This document shows, piece after piece, positions 2,806-55,946 of a stretch of DNA of 64,000 nt. How positions within the stretch are numbered: the stretch's first letter is position 1; the number at the start of each line of letters is the position of its first letter. Under the pieces are notes generated by a model. That model saw only the letters and a list, made by a program, of their open reading frames with translations, was not told where the DNA came from and ran no database searches. The stretch lies in contig NSGV01000002.1 of NCBI GenBank assembly GCA_002300355.1, positions 186,001 through 250,000 on the forward strand, given 5' to 3'. This DNA is from Streptomyces sp. TLI_235. Its GTDB lineage: Bacteria > Actinomycetota > Actinomycetes > Streptomycetales > Streptomycetaceae. The position numbers and the translations under genes were made by a program.

Positions 2806-3491
2806 CGGGCGCACTGATCGAGGCACGCGGGGTGACCCTCGCCTTCGGCGAGACCCCGGCGCTGCGCGGCGCGGACCTGACGGTCGGCGGGGGCGAGGTG
2901 CTCGCCGTGATGGGGCCGAGCGGCTCCGGCAAGTCCACGCTCCTGCACTGCCTGGCCGGCATCCTCACGCCGGACTCCGGCGAGGTCCTCTTCGACGGCC
3001 GGCGGATCGATCGCCTCGGCGAGTCCGAGCGCAGCGCGCTGCGCCGGGACCGGTTCGGCTTCGTCTTCCAGTTCGGCCAGCTCGTCCCCGAGTTGACCGC
3101 CGAGGAGAACGTCGCGCTGCCGTTGCTGCTGAGCGGCACCCGCCGTGCGGCAGCGCTCGCGGAGGCCCGGCCGTGGTTCGCCCGGCTCGGCCTGGACGGG
3201 CTGGAGCGGCGCAGGTCCGGGGAGCTGTCCGGCGGTCAGGCACAGCGGGTGGCGCTGGCGCGCGGCCTGGTGACCCGTCCGCGGGTGCTGTTCGCGGACG
3301 AGCCGACGGGTGCGCTGGACTCGTTGACCGGCGAGCAGGTGATGGAGCTGATGGTGGGTGCGGCGCGCGAACAGGGCACCACCGTGGTCCTGGTGACGCA
3401 CGAGCCGCGGGTGGCGGCGTACGCGCACCGGGAGGCGATCGTCCGTGACGGCCGGGTGACGTCGCTGTCGGTGGATCGGATCGCGTCGTGA
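2802..3491 (+). CDS. ABC transporter ATP-binding protein (MacB/LolD type)
   Basis: This 229-residue nucleotide-binding domain has Walker A GPSGSGKST (about residues 37-45), the signature LSGGQAQR, Walker B VLFADEPTGALDS and a switch histidine in VTHEPR. The length and the ADEPTGALD sequence are typical of ATPases that partner FtsX-like permeases (MacB/LolCDE/BceAB types). It overlaps both neighbours by 4 bp, so PadR, ATPase and permease form one translationally coupled operon. It should energise the permease at the inner face of the membrane for export of, or defence against, an unknown molecule. Confidence 0.92.
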   Translation: MTGALIEARGVTLAFGETPALRGADLTVGGGEVLAVMGPSGSGKSTLLHCLAGILTPDSGEVLFDGRRIDRLGESERSALRRDRFGFVFQFGQLVPELTAEENVALPLLLSGTRRAAALAEARPWFARLGLDGLERRRSGELSGGQAQRVALARGLVTRPRVLFADEPTGALDSLTGEQVMELMVGAAREQGTTVVLVTHEPRVAAYAHREAIVRDGRVTSLSVDRIAS

Positions 3492-5716
3492 TCACGCTGG
3501 CGCTGCGGCTCTCGGTGAGCGGCGGACGGGAGGCGCTGGCCAGGCTGGTCTCGATCGCGGCGGCGGTGGCGGTCGGCGTGGCGCTGCTGCTGTCGACGCT
3601 GGCCGGGATCAACGCGGTGGACGAGTCCAACGAACGGCAGTTGTGGTGGAACACCGGTGCGGCGGCCCGGACGGCGACCGCCCCGGTCGACCCGCTGTGG
3701 TGGCGGGCGCACGACGACCACTACGACGGCAAGCCGATCTTCGAGGTGGACGTGGCCGCGACCGGTCCGACCTCGCCGGTGCCACCGGGCATGGCCGCCG
3801 TGCCGGCGCCCGGGGAGTACTACGCCTCGCCCGCCCTGGCGAAGCTCGTCGCGGACGTCCCGGCGGCGGAGCTCGGCGACCGTTTCCCCGGCAGGCTCGC
3901 CGGGGAGCTGGGCGACGCCGCGCTGCCCTCGCCGGACTCGCTGATCGCGGTGGTGGGCCGCCCGGCGGAGCAGGTCCGGACCGCCCCGGGTGCCCGGGCG
4001 GTGACGACGATCGCGGACGCACTGCCGGCGAAGTGCGACAACGACTGCCCGGGCATGGGGGTGCGCGGCGACGCGATGACGCTGATCCTCTCCGTGGTGG
4101 CCGGTGCGCTGATCTTCCCGGTGCTGGTGTTCATCGGGACGGCGACGCGGCTGTCGGCGGCCCGCCGCGAGCAGCGGTTCGCAGCGATGCGGCTGGTGGG
4201 CGCCACTCCCGGCCAGGTGGCCCTGATCTCGGCGGTTGAGTCGACGCTGGCGGCGGTGGCGGGCACGGCGGCCGGCTTCGGACTGTTCGCGCTGCTCAGA
4301 CCACTGGTGGCGCAGGTGCCGTTCACCGGCGACCGGTATTTCGCAGGGGATCTGACCCTGCATGCGGTGCAGATGCTCACGGTGGCACTGGGCGTTCCGG
4401 TCGCGGCGGCGGCGGCAGCGCGGTTGGCGCTTCGCCGGGTGTCGGTGTCGCCGCTGGGGGTCAGCCGGCGGGTGACGCCGCGCCCGCCAAGGGTGAGGCG
4501 GCTGGTGCCGCTAGCGGCGGGAATCGGCGAGCTGGCCTGGTTCGTGGACCGGCGGCCGGATACGACAGACGGCCAGACCTGGGCGTACCTGTCCGGGTTC
4601 GTGCTGGTGATGCTGGCCCTGGTGGTGGCCGGGCCGTGGCTGACGATGGCCGCGGCACGGCTGGTGGCGCGGCGCACCTCGCGTCCTGCCTCGCTGATCG
4701 CGGTGCGGCGGCTGGCGGACGATCCGAAGGCGGGCTTCCGGTCGGTGAGCGGCCTGGTGCTGGCGCTCTTCGTGACCAGTGCGACGGTAGGGATCATCGG
4801 CACGATCAATGCCAACCGTGGTGTGCTGAGCGGCGACCCGCAGATGCGCGCGGCGGTGCAGCACGGTGCGCTGCTGGGCGATCCGCCGATGACGGACCGG
4901 GTGCCGGAGGTGGTGCTCACCCAGCTGAAGGCCGTGCCCGGGTACCGCGGTGCAGTGGTGGTGCACGCCAACCCGGCCGGGGTGGCGGCCGATCCGACGG
5001 ACCCGCGCCCGTGGGCGCCGGGCCTGGTGCTCTGCTCGGAGCTGGCGGGCGCCCCGGTGGTGGGTGGTTGCGCGCCGGCGGCAGAGGTCGCGGCCGTGCC
5101 GATGTACCAGTTCGTCGACCTGCAGACGGCGGCCACCCGGAAGTGGCCGGCTGCCCCCGTCTCGTCGGCGCAACTGGCCGCGCTGCCGGTGCAGATGGTG
5201 TACGTGACGACCGACGGCTCGACGGCGGCGACGGAGCGGGTGCGGACGGTGCTCGACCGGGCCTTCCCGGACCACGAGTCGCGGATGGTGAAGGACTGGG
5301 GCAGCGACCAGCAGCGGCAGTTGGCCGGCTTCCGGCAGCTGGCGAACGTGGTCATCCTGACCACCCTGCCGATCGCGGGCTGCAGTCTGGCGGTGAGTGT
5401 GGTGGCGGGGCTGTCGGACCGCAGGCGGCCGTTCGCGCTGCTGCGGCTCGGCGGGGCTCCGCTGGGCGTGCTGCGCTCGGTGGTGGCGCTGGAGAGTGCG
5501 CTGCCGCTGCTGGTGGTCGCGGGGGTGGCGACGGGGACGGGCCTGCTGGCGGCGCACCTGTTCCTGAAGTCCCAGATGCACTATGCGCTGGTGTCGCCCG
5601 GCGCGGTGTACTTCGCGCTGGTGGCACTGGGGCTGGTGGCCTCGCTCGGGATCATCGCCTCCACGCTGCCACTGCTGCGGCGGATCACCGGCCCGGAGGC
5701 GGCACGCAACGGCTGA
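3488..5716 (+). CDS. FtsX-like ABC transporter permease, 742 aa
   Basis: It starts with GTG, overlapping the ATPase stop. The first membrane helix is at about residues 20-43, followed by a roughly 150-residue extracytoplasmic domain. A first FtsX core follows (about 195-310) with the diagnostic RREQRFAAMRLVGATPGQV coupling segment. A second cluster of helices begins near 370, a second external domain spans about 440-610, and a second FtsX core (about 620-735) carries RRRPFALLRLGGAP. The duplicated FtsX layout is that of large actinobacterial permeases paired with MacB-like ATPases. The substrate is unknown; PadR control suggests a toxic or signalling compound. Confidence 0.88.
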   Translation: MITLALRLSVSGGREALARLVSIAAAVAVGVALLLSTLAGINAVDESNERQLWWNTGAAARTATAPVDPLWWRAHDDHYDGKPIFEVDVAATGPTSPVPPGMAAVPAPGEYYASPALAKLVADVPAAELGDRFPGRLAGELGDAALPSPDSLIAVVGRPAEQVRTAPGARAVTTIADALPAKCDNDCPGMGVRGDAMTLILSVVAGALIFPVLVFIGTATRLSAARREQRFAAMRLVGATPGQVALISAVESTLAAVAGTAAGFGLFALLRPLVAQVPFTGDRYFAGDLTLHAVQMLTVALGVPVAAAAAARLALRRVSVSPLGVSRRVTPRPPRVRRLVPLAAGIGELAWFVDRRPDTTDGQTWAYLSGFVLVMLALVVAGPWLTMAAARLVARRTSRPASLIAVRRLADDPKAGFRSVSGLVLALFVTSATVGIIGTINANRGVLSGDPQMRAAVQHGALLGDPPMTDRVPEVVLTQLKAVPGYRGAVVVHANPAGVAADPTDPRPWAPGLVLCSELAGAPVVGGCAPAAEVAAVPMYQFVDLQTAATRKWPAAPVSSAQLAALPVQMVYVTTDGSTAATERVRTVLDRAFPDHESRMVKDWGSDQQRQLAGFRQLANVVILTTLPIAGCSLAVSVVAGLSDRRRPFALLRLGGAPLGVLRSVVALESALPLLVVAGVATGTGLLAAHLFLKSQMHYALVSPGAVYFALVALGLVASLGIIASTLPLLRRITGPEAARNG

Positions 5717-6134
5717 ACTCGGCGGCCCGGTCCTCCCCCGCTGTGTCACGGCGGCGGGGGCCGGGCTGCCGTTCAGGGCAGGGCCGGAGCGGCAGGACGG
5801 TCCCGTGCGTCGGCTGCCGTCGACCCGCTGAACCCTCTGGCCTGGGGCGTCACATTCGGTCGCGGCCGGCGCGGCAGGTCGGCGGGCGTCGCCGGAATCG
5901 CCGTCAGGCGCCATGCCGGCGGTTGCGAGTTGACGAAGCGGAAGCATGCGGATGCCGGCGCGCGGGGCCACGGGCAGTGGCGCACGGCCCGCGCGCATCG
6001 CGCGTAGACATTGCGCGTAGAGTTTGCTTGACCTGCCTGGTTACCCGCCCGTACGTTCATCCCCGCATCGTGCGCGCCGGGCAGGTGGAACGACTCGCGT
6101 TCGCCCCTCCCGGCGGTAGAAAGGGCAGAACCAT
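5717..6134. other. 418-bp intergenic region before the HAD phosphatase gene
   Basis: The region contains the probable operon terminator, then about 240 bases in which I see no gene. Near 6000-6020 GCGCGTAGA is repeated twice within 15 bases. TTGACC at 6028-6033 with TACGTT at 6052-6057 (18-base spacer) is a plausible promoter for the phosphatase gene. A single GTTCATCCCCG at 6055 resembles one PhoP-box unit, but no second unit follows. Confidence 0.5.
5735..5760 (+). terminator. Probable terminator after the PadR-ABC-FtsX operon
   Basis: A 7-bp GC stem (CCCCCGC / GCGGGGG) with a 12-base loop lies 18 bases after the permease stop. There is no T-run, as is usual in this GC range. Confidence 0.5.
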
Positions 6135-6920
6135 ATGGTCAGGAAGACCCTCGGGAACCGCTCGAAGACCCTCGCCACCCTCGCCGTCGGCGTGGTCGTC
6201 GGCGGTGCGGTCGCGGGCGGCGGCTTCGCGGTCGCCGACACCAAGGCTCCGCGGAGCGACCGTCAGATCACCAACATGACCGACGAGGTCAACGACATCA
6301 AGGCGTACTACGGCGACACCGTCGACGCGCAGGGCGAGCACTGGCCGTCGGCGACCGGCAACTACGCCAAGCAGGTCGCCGGGATACAGAAGGACGCCAA
6401 GCAGTACCTGCAGAACCGCGCCCGCCACGACAAGGGCAAGAAGAAGGCGATCGTGCTCGACGTCGACGACACCTCGCTGTCGACGTACAACTACGAGCTG
6501 GAGACGACGTTCGTCTACAGCCCGGCGAGCAACGCCCAGTACATCGCCACCAAGACCATGCCTGCCGTCTTCGGCATGAACACCCTGGCGAAGTGGGCCG
6601 AGCAGCAGGGCTACACCGTCTTCTTCGTCACCGGCCGGCCGGAGTCCCAGCGCTCGTACACCGCGGCCAACCTGTCCGCCGTGGGCTTCCCGACCGCGGA
6701 CGCCACGCACCTGTACCTGAAGAACAAGGAGAACCCGCCGGCGTACCTGGCCTGCGGCTCGACCTGCACCACGATCGAGTACAAGTCCGGCACCCGCGCG
6801 CACATCGAGAGCCTCGGGTACCAGATCGTGGCCAACTTCGGCGACCAGTACAGCGACCTGTCCGGCGGCCACTCCGGCAAGACGTACAAGATCCCGAACC
6901 CGATGTACTACCTCCCCTGA
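6135..6920 (+). CDS. HAD-superfamily secreted acid phosphatase
   Basis: The protein is 261 residues. It has a basic N terminus and one hydrophobic segment (about residues 14-34) ending near AVA, consistent with a secretion signal. The HAD motif I VLDVDDTSLS (about 108-117) supplies the nucleophile Asp and the general acid Asp. Motif II is in FVTGRPESQRSYT. A late Asp in VANFGDQYSDL takes the motif IV position. This is the layout of the HAD acid phosphatase (HAD_2/LPP20-like, class B-type) family, which removes phosphate from organic esters outside the cell. The gene stands alone and is followed by a strong terminator. The substrate is unknown. Confidence 0.88.
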   Translation: MVRKTLGNRSKTLATLAVGVVVGGAVAGGGFAVADTKAPRSDRQITNMTDEVNDIKAYYGDTVDAQGEHWPSATGNYAKQVAGIQKDAKQYLQNRARHDKGKKKAIVLDVDDTSLSTYNYELETTFVYSPASNAQYIATKTMPAVFGMNTLAKWAEQQGYTVFFVTGRPESQRSYTAANLSAVGFPTADATHLYLKNKENPPAYLACGSTCTTIEYKSGTRAHIESLGYQIVANFGDQYSDLSGGHSGKTYKIPNPMYYLP

Positions 6921-7199: not shown

Positions 7200-8687
7200 A
7201 TGTGGTCGCGGCGTGCCGTGCTGGCCGGCCTTGTCTCGTCGCCGGTGCTGACGGCCGGCTGCCTCGCCGGCACCGCCGGCAAGACGCCACCTCACGACGG
7301 AACCGGAAGCGGGCCGCTGCCCGAGGAGCACGGGCCCGCCGGCTACCGGCGGCTGCCGATCCCGCCGCTCGCGGAATCCCGCCTTGAGAACGGCGTGCGG
7401 TGGTTCACCCTGGAAGCGCGGCCCGGCAGCGCGAGCATCGTGCCCGGCACGTCCACCCCGACCTGGGGCTACTCGCAGGACCTCCTCGGTCCGACCCTGC
7501 GCGCCCGCACCGGCGAGACGGTGGGCGTCCGGGTCCGCAACCGCCTGCCCGAGACCACCTCGGTCCACTGGCACGGCATGCATCTGCCCGCACGCTTCGA
7601 CGGCGGCCCCCACCAACCGATCGCCCCGGACGCCATCTGGGAGCCCTCCTGGGTGATCGCCCAGCCCGCGGCGACCCTCTGGTACCACCCGCACCCCCAC
7701 GGGTCGACCCAGGTGCACGCCTACCGCGGCCTGGCCGGGCTGTTCCTCGTCGACGACGAGACCGGCGCGGGTCTGCCGCACGAGTACGGCATCGACGACC
7801 TCCCGGTGATCGTGCAGGACAAGAAGCTCAACCCCGACGGCACCCTGGACGAACGCGACGACGCCGGGACGGGGCTGCTCGGTCCCACGGTGACGGCGAA
7901 CGGGATCGCGGGAGCGTATGCCCCGGTCGCCACCGACCGGGTGCGCCTGCGCATCCTCAACGGCTCGACGATGCGGGTCTACAACCTCGGCCTGGACGAC
8001 GACGGCGAGTTCGAGATGGTGGCCTCCGACGGTGGGCTGCTCGCAGCCCCCGTCCGGCTCCGCCGCCTCGCACTGACGCCCGGCGAGCGGGCGGAGATCG
8101 TCGTCCGCATGCAGGCCGGCCGACCGCGTACCCTGCGTTCCTTCCCGTCCCCGCTGCCCGCCAGGAAGGGCCGCGGACCGTCCGCAGGCGCCGCCCGGAG
8201 CGAGGAGTTCGAGATCCTGCTCCTGAACCCGCGGCCGCAGCTCCGCACCGGCGCGGCGACGCCCTCAAAGCTGGCCGTGATTCCCCCGCCCGTCACGGCC
8301 GCCGCAGTGGCACGGACCTTCGAACTCGACGGCAACACGATCAACGGCCTGCCGATGGACATGGCCCGGATGGACCTCACCGCCACCGTCGACGTCCCGG
8401 AGATCTGGACGGTGACGAACACCCACAACCGGGTGCACAACTTCCACGTGCACGACAACCACTTCCAGGTCCTCGACGTCAACGGCAGCCCTCCCCCACC
8501 GGAACTGGCCGGCTGGAAGGACACGGTCGCCGTGCCGCCGTCGGGCTCGGTGCGCCTCGCCGTGGTCTTCCGCGACTACACCGACCCGCAGAACCCGTAC
8601 ATGTTCCACTGCCATCTGATGCGCCACGAGGACGACGGAATGATGGGCCAGTTCCTGGTCGTCGGTCCGGGACAGCGGAGCGGCTGA
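7200..8687 (+). CDS. Multicopper oxidase, Tat-exported lipoprotein
   Basis: The protein is 495 residues. The N terminus MWSRRAVLAG has a twin-arginine signal followed by a lipobox LTAGC, so the mature protein should be folded with copper in the cytoplasm, exported by Tat and lipidated. All copper-binding motifs are present: HWHGMH, WYHPHPHG, HNFHVHDNHF and FHCHLMRHEDDGMMG, the last with the type-1 copper Cys-His and axial Met. The order and length match CotA/CueO-like three-domain oxidases acting on cuprous ions, phenols or similar substrates with O2. The ATG at 7200 follows AGGTGG; the open frame upstream to 7032 lacks signal logic and is excluded. Confidence 0.93.
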   Translation: MWSRRAVLAGLVSSPVLTAGCLAGTAGKTPPHDGTGSGPLPEEHGPAGYRRLPIPPLAESRLENGVRWFTLEARPGSASIVPGTSTPTWGYSQDLLGPTLRARTGETVGVRVRNRLPETTSVHWHGMHLPARFDGGPHQPIAPDAIWEPSWVIAQPAATLWYHPHPHGSTQVHAYRGLAGLFLVDDETGAGLPHEYGIDDLPVIVQDKKLNPDGTLDERDDAGTGLLGPTVTANGIAGAYAPVATDRVRLRILNGSTMRVYNLGLDDDGEFEMVASDGGLLAAPVRLRRLALTPGERAEIVVRMQAGRPRTLRSFPSPLPARKGRGPSAGAARSEEFEILLLNPRPQLRTGAATPSKLAVIPPPVTAAAVARTFELDGNTINGLPMDMARMDLTATVDVPEIWTVTNTHNRVHNFHVHDNHFQVLDVNGSPPPPELAGWKDTVAVPPSGSVRLAVVFRDYTDPQNPYMFHCHLMRHEDDGMMGQFLVVGPGQRSG

Positions 8688-8891
8688 ACACACGCCGGCC
8701 AGCACCCCGCAGCCGGCGGCCGGGAGCGGGGTTGCCCCGCCCGTGCGGGTGCACGCCGTCCACCGCTCGGTCGATCGCAGACGAATCCGCTCGTGGCCCG
8801 GGCCGTGGGCGTGCCGGGGACGAGTCCCAGGTCGGCGGCCGGGACCGTGCCCGCGCCGGGGACGACGGCCGGAGCCCAGCTGTGGCGCGGG

Positions 8892-8921
8892 TGTCCGGCC
8901 CACCTGACACTGGGCCGGACA
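8892..8921 (+). repeat. Perfect 11-bp inverted repeat upstream of DUF3068 gene
   Basis: TGTCCGGCCCA at 8892-8902 is exactly complementary to 8911-8921, with an 8-base loop. It ends 37 bases before the next start codon, so it may be an operator or leader hairpin. It could also act as a distant terminator for the multicopper oxidase gene. Confidence 0.55.
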
Positions 8922-8958
8922 GGAGCGGCACGGATCGAGTTCAGTGGGAGAGCGGATC

Positions 8959-10116
8959 ATGCGGACGAACATGGTGCTCCGCGGCGTCGGCGTCGTGGTC
9001 GGTCTGGTCCTGATCGCCGGCGCGTTCGTCCTCACGTTCTTCGTCACGCCCACCTATGTGGCCCGGCTGCCCGACGACACCGACGTCACGCGCTCCTACA
9101 CCGGCAGCTTCAAGACGCTGCTCGACGCCCAGGAGGTGGCGAAGGGCAACCTGCTCTCGGCCGTCAAGCGGGATGTCCCGATGGCCGTCGAACGGACCGT
9201 CAAGGTGCTGGACACCTCGGACGACATCGCCCTGGTCAGCGACAGCCGGACGACGACCGCGGCGGGCCGTGCGGTCGAGAAGACCACCTGGCAGTACGCC
9301 GTCGACCGAAAGACCCTCGAACCGGCCACCGATCACCCGGCGAGCTGGACGGTGGTCGACGCCAAAGGCCTGACGGTGAGCTGGCCGATCGGCGCGAAGA
9401 AGCAGACGTACACCGGCTGGCGGCCGGAGACCGGGACCACCACCCCGCTGACGTACTCGCGCACCGAGAGCAGGTCCGGCGTCAGTACCTACGTGTACCT
9501 GGCGAGGCTGCCCGCCACCCGGATCACCGACACCCAGGTGCTCGCCGGACTCCCGCCGGCCGTCCCGAAGAGCACCCTGGCGCTGGTCGCCCAGGTCGGG
9601 ACCCTCTCGGCGGAGGCGAAGCAGAAACTGGCCGTGCTGCTGCCGACGCTGCCCGATCCGGTTCCGCTGAGCTACACGCTCCAGAGCGCCGACACGTTCT
9701 GGATCGAGCCCGAGACCGGCATCGTGGTCGACACCCAGCGGTCCCAGCAGCGCACGGCCGGGGTCGTCGCCCCGAGCGACGGCGCCTTCCTTCCGCTGCT
9801 GCCGGTCTCCGACGTCTCGTACCGGCAGACGCCCGACTCCGTGAAGGCTGCCGCGGACGACGCCAAGGACGGCCGTAACGCCATCTCGCTCGTCGGCACC
9901 ATCCTGCCCATCGTGCTGGGCGTGGTCGGTGCGGTGCTGGTGGCCGTGTCCCTGCTCGTCCGGCGCCGGGGCACCCGTGGCGGCGCGGCACCGGCCGGAC
10001 CGGCCGCGCCGAACGCTCCGGCCGCACCCGGTGGTCCGGGCGCACCGGGTGGTCCGAGCGCACCGCCCGGACCGACCGGACCGAATCCGCCGGCCGGGCC
10101 CGCCGCGGACGCCTGA
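8959..10116 (+). CDS. DUF3068 / PorA-family membrane-anchored protein
   Basis: The protein is 385 residues. A membrane helix (about residues 8-30) is followed by a large extracytoplasmic domain carrying YVARLPDDTDVTRSYTG and a strand-rich body, then a second helix (about 312-335) and a basic stop-transfer RRRG. The C-terminal 45 residues form a low-complexity tail of Ala, Pro and Gly triplets, collagen-like. The two-helix, external-domain layout matches the DUF3068 proteins annotated as PorA-family in actinobacteria; porin activity is not shown for them here. The ATG at 8959 follows GGGAGAG; an upstream GTG at 8944 is inside that ribosome site. Confidence 0.82.
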   Translation: MRTNMVLRGVGVVVGLVLIAGAFVLTFFVTPTYVARLPDDTDVTRSYTGSFKTLLDAQEVAKGNLLSAVKRDVPMAVERTVKVLDTSDDIALVSDSRTTTAAGRAVEKTTWQYAVDRKTLEPATDHPASWTVVDAKGLTVSWPIGAKKQTYTGWRPETGTTTPLTYSRTESRSGVSTYVYLARLPATRITDTQVLAGLPPAVPKSTLALVAQVGTLSAEAKQKLAVLLPTLPDPVPLSYTLQSADTFWIEPETGIVVDTQRSQQRTAGVVAPSDGAFLPLLPVSDVSYRQTPDSVKAAADDAKDGRNAISLVGTILPIVLGVVGAVLVAVSLLVRRRGTRGGAAPAGPAAPNAPAAPGGPGAPGGPSAPPGPTGPNPPAGPAADA

Positions 10117-10230
10117 CGTGACGGCCGCGCGGGACCCTGGGCAGCGATCCGGCATGCCGGCCACGGGCGATTCCGCGCACACCCGGGTGACCCGGACCGC
10201 TATCGCGGGATGCCGTCGCCGTTCACCCGG

Positions 10231-10647
10231 TCAGCGGAAGCGGCCGGTGACCTTGCCCCAGCCGTGCCAGCGGTCGACCTCGATCAGGGCGGTGACCCGG
10301 CCGCGGTCGCGCACGGGGTAGTCGCGGCCCAGGTACTGCCGGGAGAGCCGGTCGATGTCGGCGAGGTCCCTGTCCTCGTACATGTCGGCGACCCGGCCGA
10401 CCAGGGTGACGTGGGTGTACCAGGAGTGCTCGTCGAGCACGGTGAGGCTGACCCGGGGGTCGGTCCGCAGGTGGTGCAGGCGGATCCGGCCCTCGTCCAT
10501 GTTGACCAGGGCGCGGCCGTCCGCCTCCCAGAGGTACCAGGTGGCGGTGGAGACGGGCTGGCCGTCCGGGCGGACGGTGGCGATGACCGCGGGGTTCGCC
10601 TTGCGCAACAGCGCGACGGCCTTCTCGGGCAGCGGCGGCCTGGGCAT
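10231..10647 (-). CDS. PPOX-class flavin/F420-dependent oxidoreductase
   Basis: This is a 138-residue single-domain split beta-barrel protein. The motif AVIATVRPDGQPVSTATWYLWE is the cofactor-binding strand pair typical of pyridoxamine-phosphate-oxidase-like enzymes. It is followed by IRLHHLRTDPRVSLTVLD and HVTLVGRV. Members bind FMN or F420 and reduce small molecules or act in detoxification. The substrate cannot be told. The ATG at 10647 follows GGAAGGA at good spacing. It is divergent from the glycosyltransferase gene across a 325-bp gap. Confidence 0.82.
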   Translation of the reverse strand: MPRPPLPEKAVALLRKANPAVIATVRPDGQPVSTATWYLWEADGRALVNMDEGRIRLHHLRTDPRVSLTVLDEHSWYTHVTLVGRVADMYEDRDLADIDRLSRQYLGRDYPVRDRGRVTALIEVDRWHGWGKVTGRFR

Positions 10648-10972
10648 GAGGTCCTTCCTCCTCCGCACCGGTATCCTCCGGGCCGAGGGGCCCCTTTTCC
10701 GGTACTCCGCAGCCTAGGCCGCACCCGGTCGGTTGCGGCGGCGCAATGCCGAACGGGTCGTCGCCGGAGTGACGGGTCGTCAAGCGGATGCGCGACAGAG
10801 ATGGACGATCTGCCGGAATCCGTGTGTTCGACATGGTCGCCCGGCACGCCCCGCCCGTCACGGTCCGCACCGCCCCCGGACTCGAACGCTGACGGCCGCG
10901 CCCGCGCGGCCCCGGCCGGGAACGGCGCGCCGAAGGCCCGCCGAAACGGGATTCGGCGCGATACTGGTGGCC
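10648..10972. other. 325-bp divergent intergenic region
   Basis: It separates the divergent PPOX and glycosyltransferase genes and must hold both promoters, but I see no clear consensus. ACGGGTCGTC occurs twice (10753-10762 and 10772-10781), a direct repeat at 19-bp spacing that could be a regulator site. No gene is supported here. Confidence 0.4.
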
Positions 10973-50494: not shown

Positions 50495-51148
50495 ATGTCG
50501 TCGCCGCAGACGCCGCCCGTCCAGGACACACCGCCGGCCGACGAGGCATCACCTCTCGCCGTGGCGGGCCCGGCCCCGGCCCCGTCGCGGCACCGCCGCC
50601 GGTGGCTGATCGCCGGGGCGGCCGTCGTGCTGGTCCTGGCCGGGGCGGGGTACGCCACCGCGGACCGCTTCGCCGCCCTCGGCGCCTACCGGTACGTCAC
50701 CCCGGCGGAGTTCAACGGCATGCCCGCCGACACGGACAACCCGCTGGTGCGGCGGGTGCAGAGTGACGCGGCCTCGGGCTTGGCGAGCCCCAAGGCGTTC
50801 GCGGCGGTCTACGGGACCCCGAGCACCGGGTACGTCATGGTGACGGGGTACCAGCGGCACGACTTCGCGCCGGCCTGGTCGGTGGACGAGGCGATCAAGA
50901 AGGGCGCCGCCTCGGGACAGCCGGTCCAGGAGATGCACCGCGCCGACCCCGGCCCGCGGGGCGGCGCGATGAAGTGCGGCCTCCAGCCGGCCGAGCAGCT
51001 GGGCGGCTTCCCCGGCGGGCTCTGCCTCTGGGCGGACGGCAGCATGCAGGCGATGTTCAGCGAGGTCGGCACCGGTCGTGCCCTCGACCTCGACCGGATC
51101 GAGGCGGACGCACGGGCGTTCCGGCTGCTCGCCGAGCAGCCCGACTGA
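50495..51148 (+). CDS. Membrane-anchored protein of unknown function, 217 aa
   Basis: A Pro-rich cytosolic leader (about 1-30) with a basic RHRRR stop is followed by one helix (WLIAGAAVVLVLAGAGYATA, about 35-55) and an external domain of about 160 residues with YRYVTPAEFNGMPADTDN, MVTGYQRHDFAPAW, two Cys (MKCGLQPAEQ, GLCLWADG) probably in a disulfide. The family is common in streptomycetes without assigned role. Confidence 0.7.
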   Translation: MSSPQTPPVQDTPPADEASPLAVAGPAPAPSRHRRRWLIAGAAVVLVLAGAGYATADRFAALGAYRYVTPAEFNGMPADTDNPLVRRVQSDAASGLASPKAFAAVYGTPSTGYVMVTGYQRHDFAPAWSVDEAIKKGAASGQPVQEMHRADPGPRGGAMKCGLQPAEQLGGFPGGLCLWADGSMQAMFSEVGTGRALDLDRIEADARAFRLLAEQPD

Positions 51149-51156
51149 CCCCAGCC

Positions 51157-51181
51157 GACGGCCGCGGCGGCCGCGGCCGTC
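51157..51181. terminator. Bidirectional terminator
   Basis: GACGGCCGCGG at 51157-51167 pairs perfectly with 51171-51181 (3-base loop) between the two convergent stops; its last bases overlap the stop of the minus-strand receptor gene. Confidence 0.75.
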
Positions 51182-54104
51182 ACGGGGTGCACCCGGTGAG
51201 CGGACGGGGGTCGCCGGCCGGGCGGCCGCAGATGTGCTCGATGAGGGGCGCGCCCTCGGCGGCCCGGCGGACCCGGATGACGTGCAGGCCGTGGCCGGGC
51301 TGCGGGCCGGTGGCGAGCGGCCGGGTGTCCCGGAAGTCGACGGTGCCGGTGGCGCGGTTCTTCATCTCCACCGCGCGCAGGCCCGCCATGACCGAGCCGA
51401 CCCCGCCCTTCTGGGAGGCGCCGGCCTTGGCCGCGCCGGCCTGGAGGGCGGCGGTGGCGTCGTAGCCGAGGGCGAGCGCGCCGTCGGAGAACACGTCGTC
51501 CTCGTACGGGTTGTCGCCGCGCGGGGCGAGCCGGAGCCCGGCCGCTGCGACCTCGGCGAGGTCGGAGGCCCGGGCCGTGACGGACGGGTCGGTGAGCGCG
51601 GTGTAGTAGAGGGTGGCCTGCGGCGCCATCCAGGTGGCACCGGTGCGGAACTGGGCCTTCGTCAGGTCGTCGCCGGTGAGCACGGTGAGCGGGCGGCTGC
51701 AGCCGGCGTCCGCGGCGAGGCGCCGCATCAGCTGGTTGACGTCGTCGGCCCGGCCGGCCAGGTAGAGCACGGCCGGCTGGTGCTCGGAGTGGCAGCTGGT
51801 GCTGAGCGCCGCCTCGAAGTCGGGGTCGCCGTTGCTGGTGAGCCCGTACTCGAGGGGGTGGCCGCCGATCAGCTGGAACCCGGCGTCCTTGAGCATCGCG
51901 GAGCCGTACTGGGCCTGTTCCGGGCTGTACCGGTCGTCGCGGCTGGGGATGCGGGTGAGCACGGCGGCCCAGCGGTCGGCGGTCGGCAGGGCGAGGCCGT
52001 CGACGATCTGCCGCAGGGCGGCGGCCTCCTCCTGGTCGGTGGCGGCCAGGCCGAAGTAGTTGACGTGGCCCTTGGCGAGGTAGGTGGCGGAGTTGGTGGT
52101 GCTGACCACGGCGAGGCCGGCCTGCTGGAGGAGGGTGAGGGAGCTGTCGCTGTCGGAGGTGTCGCGGCCGAGGCCGACCACACCGACGATCGAGCGGTCC
52201 CGTCGGGCGACGTCGACGATCCGCCGGACCATCTCGGTCTGGAAGTACATGTCCTGCCCGCCGTTGGCGAGCAGCACCTTGATCTTCAACGGGTCGCCGG
52301 CGTTGTTGCGCAGCTGGGCGAGGTGGACGCCGGTCAGCTCCTTCAGGCTGTTGAGGGCGCGCGGCTGCTGGCCGGCCGTGGTGGTGAGCGAGCCGGCGTA
52401 CACGACGGTCACGTAGCGGACGTCGGGGAGCGCGTCGACGCGGGCGTTCTCCCGCCGGATCGCGGCCTCCAGGGTGGCCAGGTCGACGTCGGCGCCGGTG
52501 CGGTCGGTTCCCTCGCCGGCCAGCGTGCCGCTGAGGCGGATGCCGTCGCCGTCGCCGGCGAGGGAGACGCCGCCGGTGGCGACGCCGACGCACTCGCGGG
52601 TGCCGCCGGGGTCGGTCCGCCACACCGCGTCCGGGTTGGAGCCGAGCAGCCGGGCCTCGCAGTAGTGCCCGCCGAGCTGCTGCACCCGCAGCACGCCGCC
52701 GCAGGCGGCGAGGACGAGGACGGCGAGCACCGTCCAGCGGGACCAGAGGAACCACCAGGAGCGCCGGACGGGCACCGCGGTGAGCCGGGTGGTCTCGCCG
52801 GCGCTCAGCTGGAGCCGGGTGAGCCGCACCGGCAGGGTCCAGGCCAGGGCGCGGCCGCGGCTCGGCGCCTGGCGCACCCGCAGGTCGCTGACCCAGTTCT
52901 CGTACGGGCCGCGGCGGCGGGAGCCGACGGCGTGCACGGTGCCGGGGTCGGTGCCGGCGTCCTCCTGCCAGGCGGCGACGTCGGCGTGCGCGACCGCGGC
53001 GAGGACGAGCAGCGGGTCCTGCTCGCTGCGGCGGCTGCGGACGTCGGAGATCGCGCCGAGCACCCGGAGGGCGCCGTTGCGGGCGTCCGCGCGGGGCACG
53101 AACACCACCGGCGGGACGCGGCGCTTGCGGCCGCGCAGGTCGGGCGCCCAGGAGCGGTGCGCCCAGCGGAGGTCCTCCAGCAGGGCGAGGGTGCGCAGCT
53201 GCAGGTGGAACTGCTGGGCGCGGTCCTTCTCCTCGGCGGGTGTGTCGGGCAGCTGGGCCTTGAGTATCTCGCCGGCGACCTCGCGGGCGCGGGCCCGGGT
53301 GACGTCCCAGGACATCCGGGGCCGCCAGAGCGACCAGGCGGCGGCCTGCCGGCCGGAGGCGGCGAGGAAGGTGGTGGTGGCGAACCAGCGGCTGGCCCGG
53401 CCGAGCCAGGAGAGCGGCGCGGTGTTGCGGCGCACGAAGCCGGTGACGCCGAGCAGCAGCAGCGCGGCGAGCAGGACGAGCACGACGACCTGCCACCTGG
53501 CCTGGGTGAGCAGGCTGGTGAGCCCGGCGAGGACGAAGGCGCCGATCAGGGTGGTGGAGTTGAGCACCGGCGACAGCAGCCGCTGCACCTCACCGCCGCT
53601 GGTGCGCGGCTCGGGCCGCCAGTGCAGGTCGCGGAGCCGGCCGAGGACGGACTCGACGAGGTCGTCGAGGGAGCGCCCGGCGGCGTCCGGAGTGGTGAGG
53701 GTGTGCCGGGCGGCCGCCTCGATCGCGGCGACGAGGCGGGAGCGCGGCGCGGGGTAGGCCCGGTACCAGGACGGCCCGCGGCGGGCCCAGGGGCCCTTGG
53801 CGAGGCCGTCGATGATGCCGACGGCGTTACGGTGCGGGTCGTCGCCGTCGGCGCCGGAGACCACCCGGTGCGGCAGCCCGCCGCTCTCCTGGGCCTCCTG
53901 GACGGCGTGCACCACGCCCCGGACCTCGCGGTCGAGCTCCGGGTCGTCGTCCTCGGCGTACAGCACGACGACCGGCATCGGCAGCCGGGCGCCGCTGAAC
54001 TGGTCGATGAGGTCCTTGACCAGCGCGTCGACCTCGTACTTGGCGGTGGTACGCACACCGCCGATCCGGGCGCTCTCGCGCGCCGACCCCTGAGCCACCT
54101 GCAC
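51180..54104 (-). CDS. Three-TM receptor with type-1 periplasmic-binding ectodomain, 974 aa
   Basis: A GTG start at 54104 (VQVAQGSARES) is assumed; GTG at 54056 (VRTTAKYEVD) is an alternative. In the first case the order is: cytosolic domain 1-180 (PVVVLYAEDDDPELDREV and SWYRAYPAPRSRLVAAIEAA); a membrane hairpin about 181-222; a second cytosolic domain about 225-450 (VVFVPRADARNGALRVLGAI and DPLLVLAAVAHADVA); a third helix about 455-471; then an extracellular ANF/Leu-binding-type domain to the end (VYAGSLTTT, IVGVVGLGRDTSDSDSSLTLLQQAGL, STTNSATYL, AVLYLAGRADDV). No Walker motif or kinase is present. It may be a ligand sensor; no partner gene is obvious. Confidence 0.75.
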   Translation of the reverse strand: MQVAQGSARESARIGGVRTTAKYEVDALVKDLIDQFSGARLPMPVVVLYAEDDDPELDREVRGVVHAVQEAQESGGLPHRVVSGADGDDPHRNAVGIIDGLAKGPWARRGPSWYRAYPAPRSRLVAAIEAAARHTLTTPDAAGRSLDDLVESVLGRLRDLHWRPEPRTSGGEVQRLLSPVLNSTTLIGAFVLAGLTSLLTQARWQVVVLVLLAALLLLGVTGFVRRNTAPLSWLGRASRWFATTTFLAASGRQAAAWSLWRPRMSWDVTRARAREVAGEILKAQLPDTPAEEKDRAQQFHLQLRTLALLEDLRWAHRSWAPDLRGRKRRVPPVVFVPRADARNGALRVLGAISDVRSRRSEQDPLLVLAAVAHADVAAWQEDAGTDPGTVHAVGSRRRGPYENWVSDLRVRQAPSRGRALAWTLPVRLTRLQLSAGETTRLTAVPVRRSWWFLWSRWTVLAVLVLAACGGVLRVQQLGGHYCEARLLGSNPDAVWRTDPGGTRECVGVATGGVSLAGDGDGIRLSGTLAGEGTDRTGADVDLATLEAAIRRENARVDALPDVRYVTVVYAGSLTTTAGQQPRALNSLKELTGVHLAQLRNNAGDPLKIKVLLANGGQDMYFQTEMVRRIVDVARRDRSIVGVVGLGRDTSDSDSSLTLLQQAGLAVVSTTNSATYLAKGHVNYFGLAATDQEEAAALRQIVDGLALPTADRWAAVLTRIPSRDDRYSPEQAQYGSAMLKDAGFQLIGGHPLEYGLTSNGDPDFEAALSTSCHSEHQPAVLYLAGRADDVNQLMRRLAADAGCSRPLTVLTGDDLTKAQFRTGATWMAPQATLYYTALTDPSVTARASDLAEVAAAGLRLAPRGDNPYEDDVFSDGALALGYDATAALQAGAAKAGASQKGGVGSVMAGLRAVEMKNRATGTVDFRDTRPLATGPQPGHGLHVIRVRRAAEGAPLIEHICGRPAGDPRPLTGCTP

Positions 54105-54387
54105 CCCCGTAGCCGCCCCCCGCGGGACGCGCACCGCGCCCCGGCCTGACCTGGCGTCAGACCGTGAGTGTAGACCGGGGGTGTGACGGCGCACACGGGG
54201 TCGAACACGCAGGGTGCGGGCGCCGCGGATGGGCCGTCGGGGGGACAGCGCTCACTCCGACGGCGCAGTGCCGCGAGCCGTGGCCTGCGCTCCGGGCGCG
54301 GCGGCGGAAGGCTGGCGCGGGCCACCGCGCGGGGCGCGTGCGCCCGGCGGTGCCGCCTGCTGTCGGGTTCGAGCTTCCGAGGGCCGC
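54105..54387. other. 283-bp region between receptor and cyd-like genes
   Basis: It is the divergent promoter region for the receptor gene and the truncated cydA gene. I see no conserved operator, for example no Rex-type TTGTGA dyad. GAGGG near 54380 is the ribosome site for the latter. Confidence 0.4.
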
Positions 54388-54900
54388 ATGACGACCGCAC
54401 CATTCCTGCCGGCGGGCACGCCGGCGCAGCTGCTGCCCGCCCGCGAGCTCGTGGCGTTCACCCCGGCCGCGCACATCACCCTGGTGCCGCCGGGTGTGGC
54501 GCTGCCGTTCGTCACCCCGGTGATGCACCACCGGGGGCTTCGCCGAAACGACCCGGTGGCGGTGCTGCCGGCCCGCCGCCGGTCGGCGGTGACGGCGGTA
54601 CGGTTCGCGGTCGGCATCGTGACGGGCACGGTGCCGTCCTTCGAGTTCGGGCTGCTGTGGCCGGGCATGACGGGCCGCCGGGGGGACGTCCCGACCGCCG
54701 CCGCCTCACTGCGGACGATGTCCGGCGTCGTGGTCGGCGTCCACCTGCTGCTCTTCGCGGCCTTCCGGACGGTGCTGCCGAAGATGCGCACCCGCCGGCG
54801 GGCGGCCGGCACCGGCCCGCCGCCCGGCGACGGACGGGAGGCCGACACCCCGTACGGGCCCCGCCCGGCGACCGCGGCGGGCGGCGGGGGCGCCCCGTGA
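54388..54900 (+). pseudogene. cydA: cydA remnant with internal deletion, 170 aa
   Basis: Full-length CydA is about 500 residues; this frame has 170. Residues 16-101 read as the CydA N terminus: LLPARELVAFTPAAHITLVPPG (residue His-29 aligned to the haem b595 ligand) and GTVPSFEFGLLWPGMTGRRGD. From residue 102 it jumps to a C-terminal helix SGVVVGVHLLLFAAF and tail. The Q loop and the b558 ligands are absent. Several L-to-P-like changes (VLPARRR, TVPSFE) also look like decay. Start, ribosome site and stop remain, and the stop overlaps the cydB GTG. Confidence 0.8.
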
Positions 54901-55946
54901 CCGCGGACGTCCTGGCCTGGATCCTGCTGGCCGCGGTGGCCGCCTACGCCTGCGGCGGCGGGGTCGACTACGGCGCGGGCTTCTGGGACCTGGTCGCGGG
55001 CGGCGCGGAGCGCGGCCGCCGGCCCCGGTGGCTGATCGACCACGCGATGGCCCCGGTGTGGGAGGTCAACAACGTCTGGCTGATCTTCGTCCTGGTGCTG
55101 ATGTGGACGGGCTTCCCGGTCTTCTTCCAGACGGTGTTCACCGCGATGTGGCTGCCGCTGGCGCTGGCCGCGGTCGGCCTGCTGCTGCGCGGCGCGGGCT
55201 TCGCCCTGAGAAAGCCCGCCCGGCGGCTGGCGGCCCGGCGGGTGTACGGCGCGGTGTTCGCCGTCTCCTCGGTGGTCACCCCGTTCTTCTTCGGCGCGGT
55301 GGTCGGCGGGGTGGCCTCCGGCCGGGTCGCCCCCGGCACGACCGCCTCCGCGGACGTCTGGGCGAACACCGCCTCGGTGCAGACCGGGCTCCTCACCGTC
55401 GCCGCCACCGCCTACCTGGGGGCGGTGTTCCTCACCGCCGACGCCGGCCGATTCGACGCGCCCGACCTCGTGCGGTACTTCCGGCTGCGGGCCTGGGCGG
55501 GCCTCGCCGCCGTCGCCGTCCTGGCGCTGATCGGGCTGACGGTGACCGACGACCACGCCTCCTACGTCCACCACGGGCTCACCCACGGGATCGGGCTCGC
55601 GCTGCTGGCCGCCGCGGTGGTGGCGGCCGCGGCCACCGGATGGCTGGTCGCGGGGCGGTCCGCCGGCTGGGCGCGGTACAGCTCGGTCGCCTCGGTGGTA
55701 CTGGTGGTCGCCGCGTGGGGCTTCGCCCAGAAGCCGTACCTGCTGCCGACCTCGCTGACGGTGCAGCGGGCCGCCGGCGCGGACGGGCCGCTGAAGTGGC
55801 TGCTGTTCGTCAGCGCGGTCGCCGTGGTGCTGATCGGTCCGGCCCTGGTGGTGCTCTACCGGCTGGACACCCACGGCGTGCTGGAGCCGCTGACCGACGC
55901 CGACGTGGCGGGCGGCCGCGGCCCGGGCGAGGGGGCCGCCCCGTGA
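54897..55946 (+). CDS. cydB: Cytochrome bd-type quinol oxidase subunit II
   Basis: The protein is 349 residues with eight or nine membrane helices. AVAAYACGGGVDYGAGFWDL and PVWEVNNVWLIFVLVLMWTGFPVFF are diagnostic of CydB. FAQKPYLLPTSLTV ends the C-terminal family segment. It starts at a GTG overlapping the cydA remnant stop, and its own stop overlaps the next GTG. CydB alone does not oxidise quinol, so without CydA it may be non-functional, or serve with CydA from elsewhere. Confidence 0.92.
   Translation: MTADVLAWILLAAVAAYACGGGVDYGAGFWDLVAGGAERGRRPRWLIDHAMAPVWEVNNVWLIFVLVLMWTGFPVFFQTVFTAMWLPLALAAVGLLLRGAGFALRKPARRLAARRVYGAVFAVSSVVTPFFFGAVVGGVASGRVAPGTTASADVWANTASVQTGLLTVAATAYLGAVFLTADAGRFDAPDLVRYFRLRAWAGLAAVAVLALIGLTVTDDHASYVHHGLTHGIGLALLAAAVVAAAATGWLVAGRSAGWARYSSVASVVLVVAAWGFAQKPYLLPTSLTVQRAAGADGPLKWLLFVSAVAVVLIGPALVVLYRLDTHGVLEPLTDADVAGGRGPGEGAAP

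Follow-up and report, generated by a model that had tools for sequence, protein, structure and literature searches.

The window analysed here is the whole stretch of 64,000 nucleotides of Streptomyces sp. TLI_235 (assembly GCA_002300355.1, contig NSGV01000002.1, positions 186,001 to 250,000 of the forward strand), and its positions are counted from its first letter. On its minus strand it carries a gene that, on balance, appears to encode a ligand-gated membrane receptor, in which an extracellular type-1 binding module, of the kind found in periplasmic-binding proteins (PBP), is followed inwards by one predicted transmembrane (TM) helix and by a degenerate STAND-like P-loop nucleoside triphosphatase (NTPase) with a membrane hairpin in it. 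This reading is drawn from comparisons of sequences and profiles, and the features it refers to are the following:

51180..54056, minus strand: entire gene, about 958 amino acids, starting with the GTG at 54056 (alternatively with that at 54104)
53565..53990, minus strand: N-terminal half of the putative degenerate P-loop NTPase, residues about 23-164, by profile comparison
53433..53558, minus strand: membrane hairpin, by hydropathy
52821..53432, minus strand: C-terminal half of the putative degenerate NTPase, residues about 209-412, by profile comparison
52674..52730, minus strand: single TM helix joining the ectodomain, residues about 443-461, by hydropathy
51183..52655, minus strand: predicted extracellular type-1 (Leu/Ile/Val (LIV)/ANF-type) ligand-binding module, residues about 468-958

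The frame is open from 51180 to 54194. GTG 54104 was chosen as start by the preliminary description of this DNA and also by our home-made gene caller (which missed the PBP gene in 8 of the 132 loci fetched, these being read by open frame), but we prefer GTG 54056, because in six of the eight named ortholog loci the caller starts at the equivalent residue, in the motif M[RP]TTAKYEVD; the start is uncertain by these 16 codons. At E<=1e-50, matches were found in 17 of the 70 genomes of the genus, including the window's own, where the gene is present in a single copy. Orthologs are thus found in 16 of the 69 other genomes, 15 of them as one frame and 67-92% identical; the sixteenth (locus L051 of genome G069, 7970-10884, plus strand) consists of two overlapping frames, possibly because of a frameshift or a sequencing error. 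The eight named orthologs belong to Kitasatospora (seven) and to one 'Streptomyces sp.'. Since so many genomes match at such identities, we take the gene to be real and not a chance open reading frame; the frame first described, 51180-54104, is therefore kept and only its start is moved.

By hydropathy, TM helices of the window protein lie at about residues 190-208 and 443-461, while the first helix of the hairpin (about 167-186) falls just below the threshold in the window and above it in several orthologs. Lysines and arginines together number 2 before the hairpin, 1 in its loop and 4 after it, then 3 before the last helix and 1 after, a distribution that fits weakly with the N-terminus inside and the PBP module outside. 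The topology drawn from hydropathy and charge agrees with the order originally proposed, that is a cytosolic part, a membrane hairpin, a second cytosolic part, one helix and an external binding domain.

The nature of this external domain was also correctly recognised. A module profile built from a 17-row alignment matched Leu/Ile/Val-binding proteins in the PDB (4gnr, E 2.9e-10; 4n0q, E 1.1e-9) and, weakly, mGluR5 (E 2.4e-5), so that by profile the module shares the type-1 fold of Leu/Ile/Val solute-binding proteins and of class C receptor (mGluR) ectodomains; near its start an ECVGV motif is conserved. In a class-wide draw the module was found in 87 of 394 genomes at E<=1e-10, and its places were fetched for analysis except for the weakest, about 15 with E above 1e-27. 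A phylum-wide draw, whose class make-up is unlisted, gave 6 of 296 genomes at E<=1e-20, all six of the window's class. A distant relative (L193 of genome G115, 3623-6211, minus strand) combines TPR-like repeats, a type-1 binding domain (Peripla_BP_6) and a match to the transmembrane domain of neurotransmitter-gated ion channels (Neur_chan_memb, E 7e-8).

Relatives of the window protein follow two plans. In the split plan, a soluble STAND-like NTPase, mostly of 620-740 amino acids, is encoded directly upstream of a TM-PBP gene of roughly 500 amino acids, and the NTPase and the membrane-anchored binding domain form a two-gene operon; in the fused plan, a shortened core is followed by a TM helix and then by the PBP module. 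Many split NTPases show P-x(5)-G-x(4)-GK[ST], the Walker A signature GxxxxGK[ST] being kept in 17 of 29 split relatives, and in a 21-row split alignment the Walker A glycines, the Phe of an FPRL motif and the Walker B Asp are all invariant. At E<=0.1, AAA_16 was matched by 20 of 21 split NTPases, nSTAND_NTPase5 by 8 and NACHT by 7. Against the PDB, the NTPase profile met mainly AAA+/Clp P-loops, over about its first 70 positions, and the NACHT of NLRP9 at E 0.015 (among the 60 matches listed of 266); these matches support a P-loop assignment but not STAND in particular. The two plans are bridged by a fusion of 1291 amino acids (L175), in which intact motifs, GPGGSGKT and LLLLDDID, are joined to a TM-PBP part. 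Searching in reverse with the NTPase profile, with three candidates scored per genome, placed 28 of 29 hits directly upstream of a PBP module or fused to one; 18 of the 29 were rows of the profile itself, and 10 of the other 11 adjoin or contain the module. One NTPase of the family, with GxxxxGKS, is an orphan (L194 of genome G160, 3169-5274, plus strand): the surrounding 11 kb that were fetched contain no PBP gene.

Hydropathy was also applied to these relatives. Of 25 split NTPases, 22 are free of TM-like segments and the remaining three each contain one, at about residue 490-530; none of the 25 shows a hairpin at the position where the window protein has it. Among 61 fused proteins the number of segments before the PBP module is three in 25, two in 15, one in 19 and none in 2, and fused relatives without the hairpin do occur. 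A history from operon to fusion, and then to decay with a gained hairpin, is suggested, in an order that the unrooted tree leaves unproven.

The window protein itself has no significant family in Pfam, NCBIfam or PADLOC scans and, in agreement with the lack of Walker, helix-turn-helix and kinase motifs reported in the preliminary description, Pfam shows no such family in it. Comparison of profiles with profiles (single-comparison E-values throughout) reached further. The window clade (14 rows) matched the cytosolic domains of the other fused proteins (26 rows) with a probability of 98.4% (E 8e-15), and these in turn matched the split NTPases (25 rows) with 99.3% (E 5e-20). Compared directly with the split NTPases, the window clade gave 68.7% (E 5e-5), and 95.9% (E 6e-9) when four near relatives were added, while 27 unrelated families used as controls stayed at or below 1.5%. 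In the stepwise alignment a single NTPase is matched collinearly by both cytosolic halves, over the range between the Walker A strand and the strand that follows Walker B. The N-terminal half has the strand PMPVVVLYAEDDDPE at the Walker A position and YRAYPAPRSRL where relatives have the FPRL motif; the C-terminal half contains LALLEDLRWAHR, VPPVVFVPRAD at the Walker B position, and DPLLVLAAV. From these alignments the two cytosolic parts, first described as two unknown domains, are most likely a single degenerate P-loop NTPase that the hairpin splits in two.

The degeneration is evident at both nucleotide-binding sites. The Walker A lysine is present in none of the 14 rows of the window clade, each of which has a gap in that column, and in 1 of 61 fused rows, of which 38 are gapped there. 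The Walker B Asp is kept in 25 of 25 split rows, in 26 of 61 fused rows and in none of the 14 window-clade rows, all of which have P instead. Having lost the Walker A lysine as well as the Walker B acid, the NTPase of the window clade should not hydrolyse nucleoside triphosphates. Active STAND NTPases are further marked by a GxP motif and a winged-helix domain after the core. In 21 relatives the G of this motif (G408) is invariant and the P (P410) nearly so, and the alignment of the window protein with the split NTPases ends before that region. Assignment to the active STAND NTPases was therefore considered and rejected on the Walker A lysine, the Walker B Asp and GxP; judged by such membership tests, filing the window protein as an active STAND or KAP protein is not justified.

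Loss of both residues is also what would be expected if the NTPase had decayed after fusion and the protein were now a relic, an inert anchored binding protein. The presence of the gene in only 17 of 70 genus genomes, in one of them as two frames, points the same way. However, in the eight named orthologs the cytosolic part (75-91% identical) is about as conserved as the ectodomain (69-93%), which suggests constraint, and we consider a relic unlikely.

The cytosolic part varies on the same module in other relatives. TIR_2 was found in L037 (E 2e-34) and L189 (E 4.5e-9) by Pfam, in L190 by likeness and in L186 by eye; TIR with an NB-ARC-like NTPase in L104, NB-ARC being below the Pfam cut-off; TIR with a kinase in L129 (Pfam) and L127 (by eye); a kinase in L041 (own model) and L174 (by eye); EAD1 in L135, L141, L147 and both proteins of L138, one of these just above the cut-off; and DUF4062 in L153 and L155 by Pfam and in four more by our own model. 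TIR_2, Pkinase, EAD1 and DUF4062 all scored above Pfam cut-offs. The earlier remark that neither a kinase nor a chemoreceptor is attached to the binding domain thus stands for the window protein but not for its family, where fusions to kinase, TIR, EAD1, DUF4062 and intact NTPase exist. Since the same ectodomain sits on intact ATPases, TIR, kinases and adaptor domains, the sensor resembles an exchangeable front end for bacterial signalling or defence. The PADLOC matches of L129 were set aside, as they fall on its kinase domain and are no evidence of defence. EAD1 matches number 9, 10, 25 and 26 in four genomes that have EAD1-PBP proteins and one in the window's own genome; these counts fit an adaptor network for the EAD1-PBP relatives and are uninformative on the window protein.

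We mapped the outputs on a 128-row tree of the module, built with a quick method and rooted at the midpoint, which leaves out 5 duplicates, 3 short or weak rows and L042; L122 was relabelled 'split', L166 was called 'fused' by eye and 11 rows stay 'other'. The nine output labels need 17 changes on this tree, while shuffled labels need 57.6 on average, and one five-member clade (Shimodaira-Hasegawa-like approximate likelihood ratio test, SH-aLRT, 99) unites a kinase, a TIR-NTPase and three pseudo-NTPases. Such a pattern would suit outputs that are exchanged now and then.

Several results speak against the receptor model that we propose. The labels are strongly clustered, so the outputs are for the most part handed down together with the sensor; moreover, two of the nine labels, 'other' and one that occurs in a single row, say little. 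The AAA_16 scores of five individually viewed NTPases lie below the curated cut-off. Even when iterated, HMMER searches with hidden Markov models (HMM) of the split NTPases failed to detect the window protein, and in the class-wide search with the NTPase profile the window gene was missed in its own genome at E<=1e-25. The link to NTPases depends on profile-profile steps through relatives, and signalling is deduced from family context only. As to the power of the HMM, its direct search detected 12 of the 26 non-window fused proteins, a number that iteration raised to 23, and it recovered 0 to 3 of 21 held-out rows, depending on the round; with 200 shuffles and 1056 background proteins as controls, one match fell below 1e-3, an upstream fragment of the same NTPase (L136).

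These misses, together with the lack of any match in the HMM libraries and the direct comparison of only 68.7%, are what would be expected if the protein carried two independent cytosolic output domains unrelated to NTPases. This explanation is rather improbable, given that the stepwise comparison aligns both halves collinearly with a single NTPase and that hairpin-free fused relatives exist.

The gene neighbourhood bears on another possibility, that the protein is a tethered solute-binding protein feeding an ABC importer encoded elsewhere. The likeness of the module to LIV-type importer proteins is in its favour. Unlike those proteins, however, the module is attached at its N-terminus, through a membrane helix, to a long cytosolic part that precedes it, and its relatives carry TIR, kinase, EAD1 or NTPase parts. 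The scans of 10 window neighbours and 20 ortholog neighbours revealed no ABC-transporter gene, so that membership of the external part in an importer, which would have contradicted the first proposal of a sensor, found no support, and we regard an importer component as quite improbable. By Pfam, the 10 window neighbours include MFS, YceI, CHAD/CYTH, cytochrome bd subunits, a Na+/H+ exchanger and DUF389, three being without match. Finally, KAP P-loop NTPases have a TM hairpin inserted within the NTPase, as seems to be the case here, but a KAP-type protein is very improbable, since no KAP match was found by Pfam in the window protein nor among the families listed for 21 NTPases (the 25 commonest), and the insertion looks independent because the split NTPases have no hairpin at that place.

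A comparison of neighbourhoods, which the preliminary description had proposed across actinobacteria, was run on 14 ortholog loci and revealed little conservation. The neighbours of the window gene are conserved in its two nearest relatives, and three genes on one side also in a third; five others share a divergent gene of roughly 340 amino acids and the rest share little. In one subclade (L046, L084, L085, L086 and L051) a divergent gene of 338-348 amino acids lies just upstream on the opposite strand; in the two members scanned (L046 and L051) it belongs to the ROK family, and we take it as shared descent of the site and not as a partner. Beside the window gene, the plus-strand gene at 54388-54900 encodes a cytochrome bd oxidase subunit I that is only 170 amino acids long and matches positions 2-88 of a 418-position Pfam model; it is followed by subunit II (54897-55946, plus strand), for which nearly the whole Pfam model is matched; the oxidase pair is truncated or odd. 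The convergent neighbour at 50495-51148 (plus strand, 217 amino acids) shows a single TM-like stretch on inspection by eye and is without a Pfam match.

Some known systems resemble parts of this arrangement. In some instances of the actinobacterial EACC1/caspase two-gene 'System 4', the variable position at the C-terminus of the caspase protein is occupied by TM helices followed by an extracellular PBP domain (Kaur et al. 2020, PMC7159879). The likeness lies in being actinobacterial and membrane-associated, with conflict-type domains; here, however, the PBP module is constant and the cytosolic part varies, the window protein has a pseudo-NTPase, and no Pfam match to a caspase was found in it or in the relatives scanned. 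The inactive STAND (iSTAND) component of MoxR-vWA ternary systems is a catalytically dead STAND NTPase with TIR or EAD fusions (PMC7159879); those domains are there fused to iSTAND and here to the same ectodomain, the window protein differs from iSTAND in being fused to an extracellular binding module, and no MoxR or vWA match was found among the 10 window neighbours scanned. In GlnH-GlnX-PknG of Corynebacterium glutamicum, an external binding protein is proposed to control a cytosolic signalling protein via a transmembrane protein (PMC9769921). Unlike the window receptor, this system has three separate proteins and a kinase output. No description of a family of PBP-module receptors was found in the literature searched, among the matches listed. 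Of the 'new class of transmembrane sensor' first proposed, the sensor therefore holds, with no evident transporter and no family account in that literature, while the two independent unknown cytosolic domains are not supported.

Returning to the ligand-gated receptor, the protein is probably a receptor and not an importer, its pseudo-NTPase acting as scaffold or regulator. A small solute, perhaps amino-acid-like, would close the outer domain; the closure would move the TM helix and the pseudo-NTPase, which might then signal through changed oligomerisation or partner binding in trans rather than through catalysis. In relatives whose Walker motif is intact, a working NTPase switch would play this part; others carry TIR, kinase, EAD1 or DUF4062 parts in its place.

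Bacterial TIR, STAND and EAD domains are mostly discussed as intracellular sensors or effectors. If a conserved extracellular binding domain is linked to several of them, then some of these switches would sense chemicals outside the cell. We tentatively raise the possibility that actinobacteria possess modular surface 'danger' receptors, in which one small-molecule ectodomain and one TM helix are combined with interchangeable immune or cell-death outputs (TIR, STAND-like NTPase, EAD1, kinase). If this were true, an extracellular chemical cue could trigger a defence or suicide programme, the receptors would be counterparts of Toll-like receptors in layout but not in ancestry, and the window clade would be a branch of pseudo-NTPase regulators or adaptors. 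The family offers proteins with which this may be tested: the soluble ectodomain for ligands, and the relatives fused to TIR or a kinase, in which activation would show in the enzymatic output.
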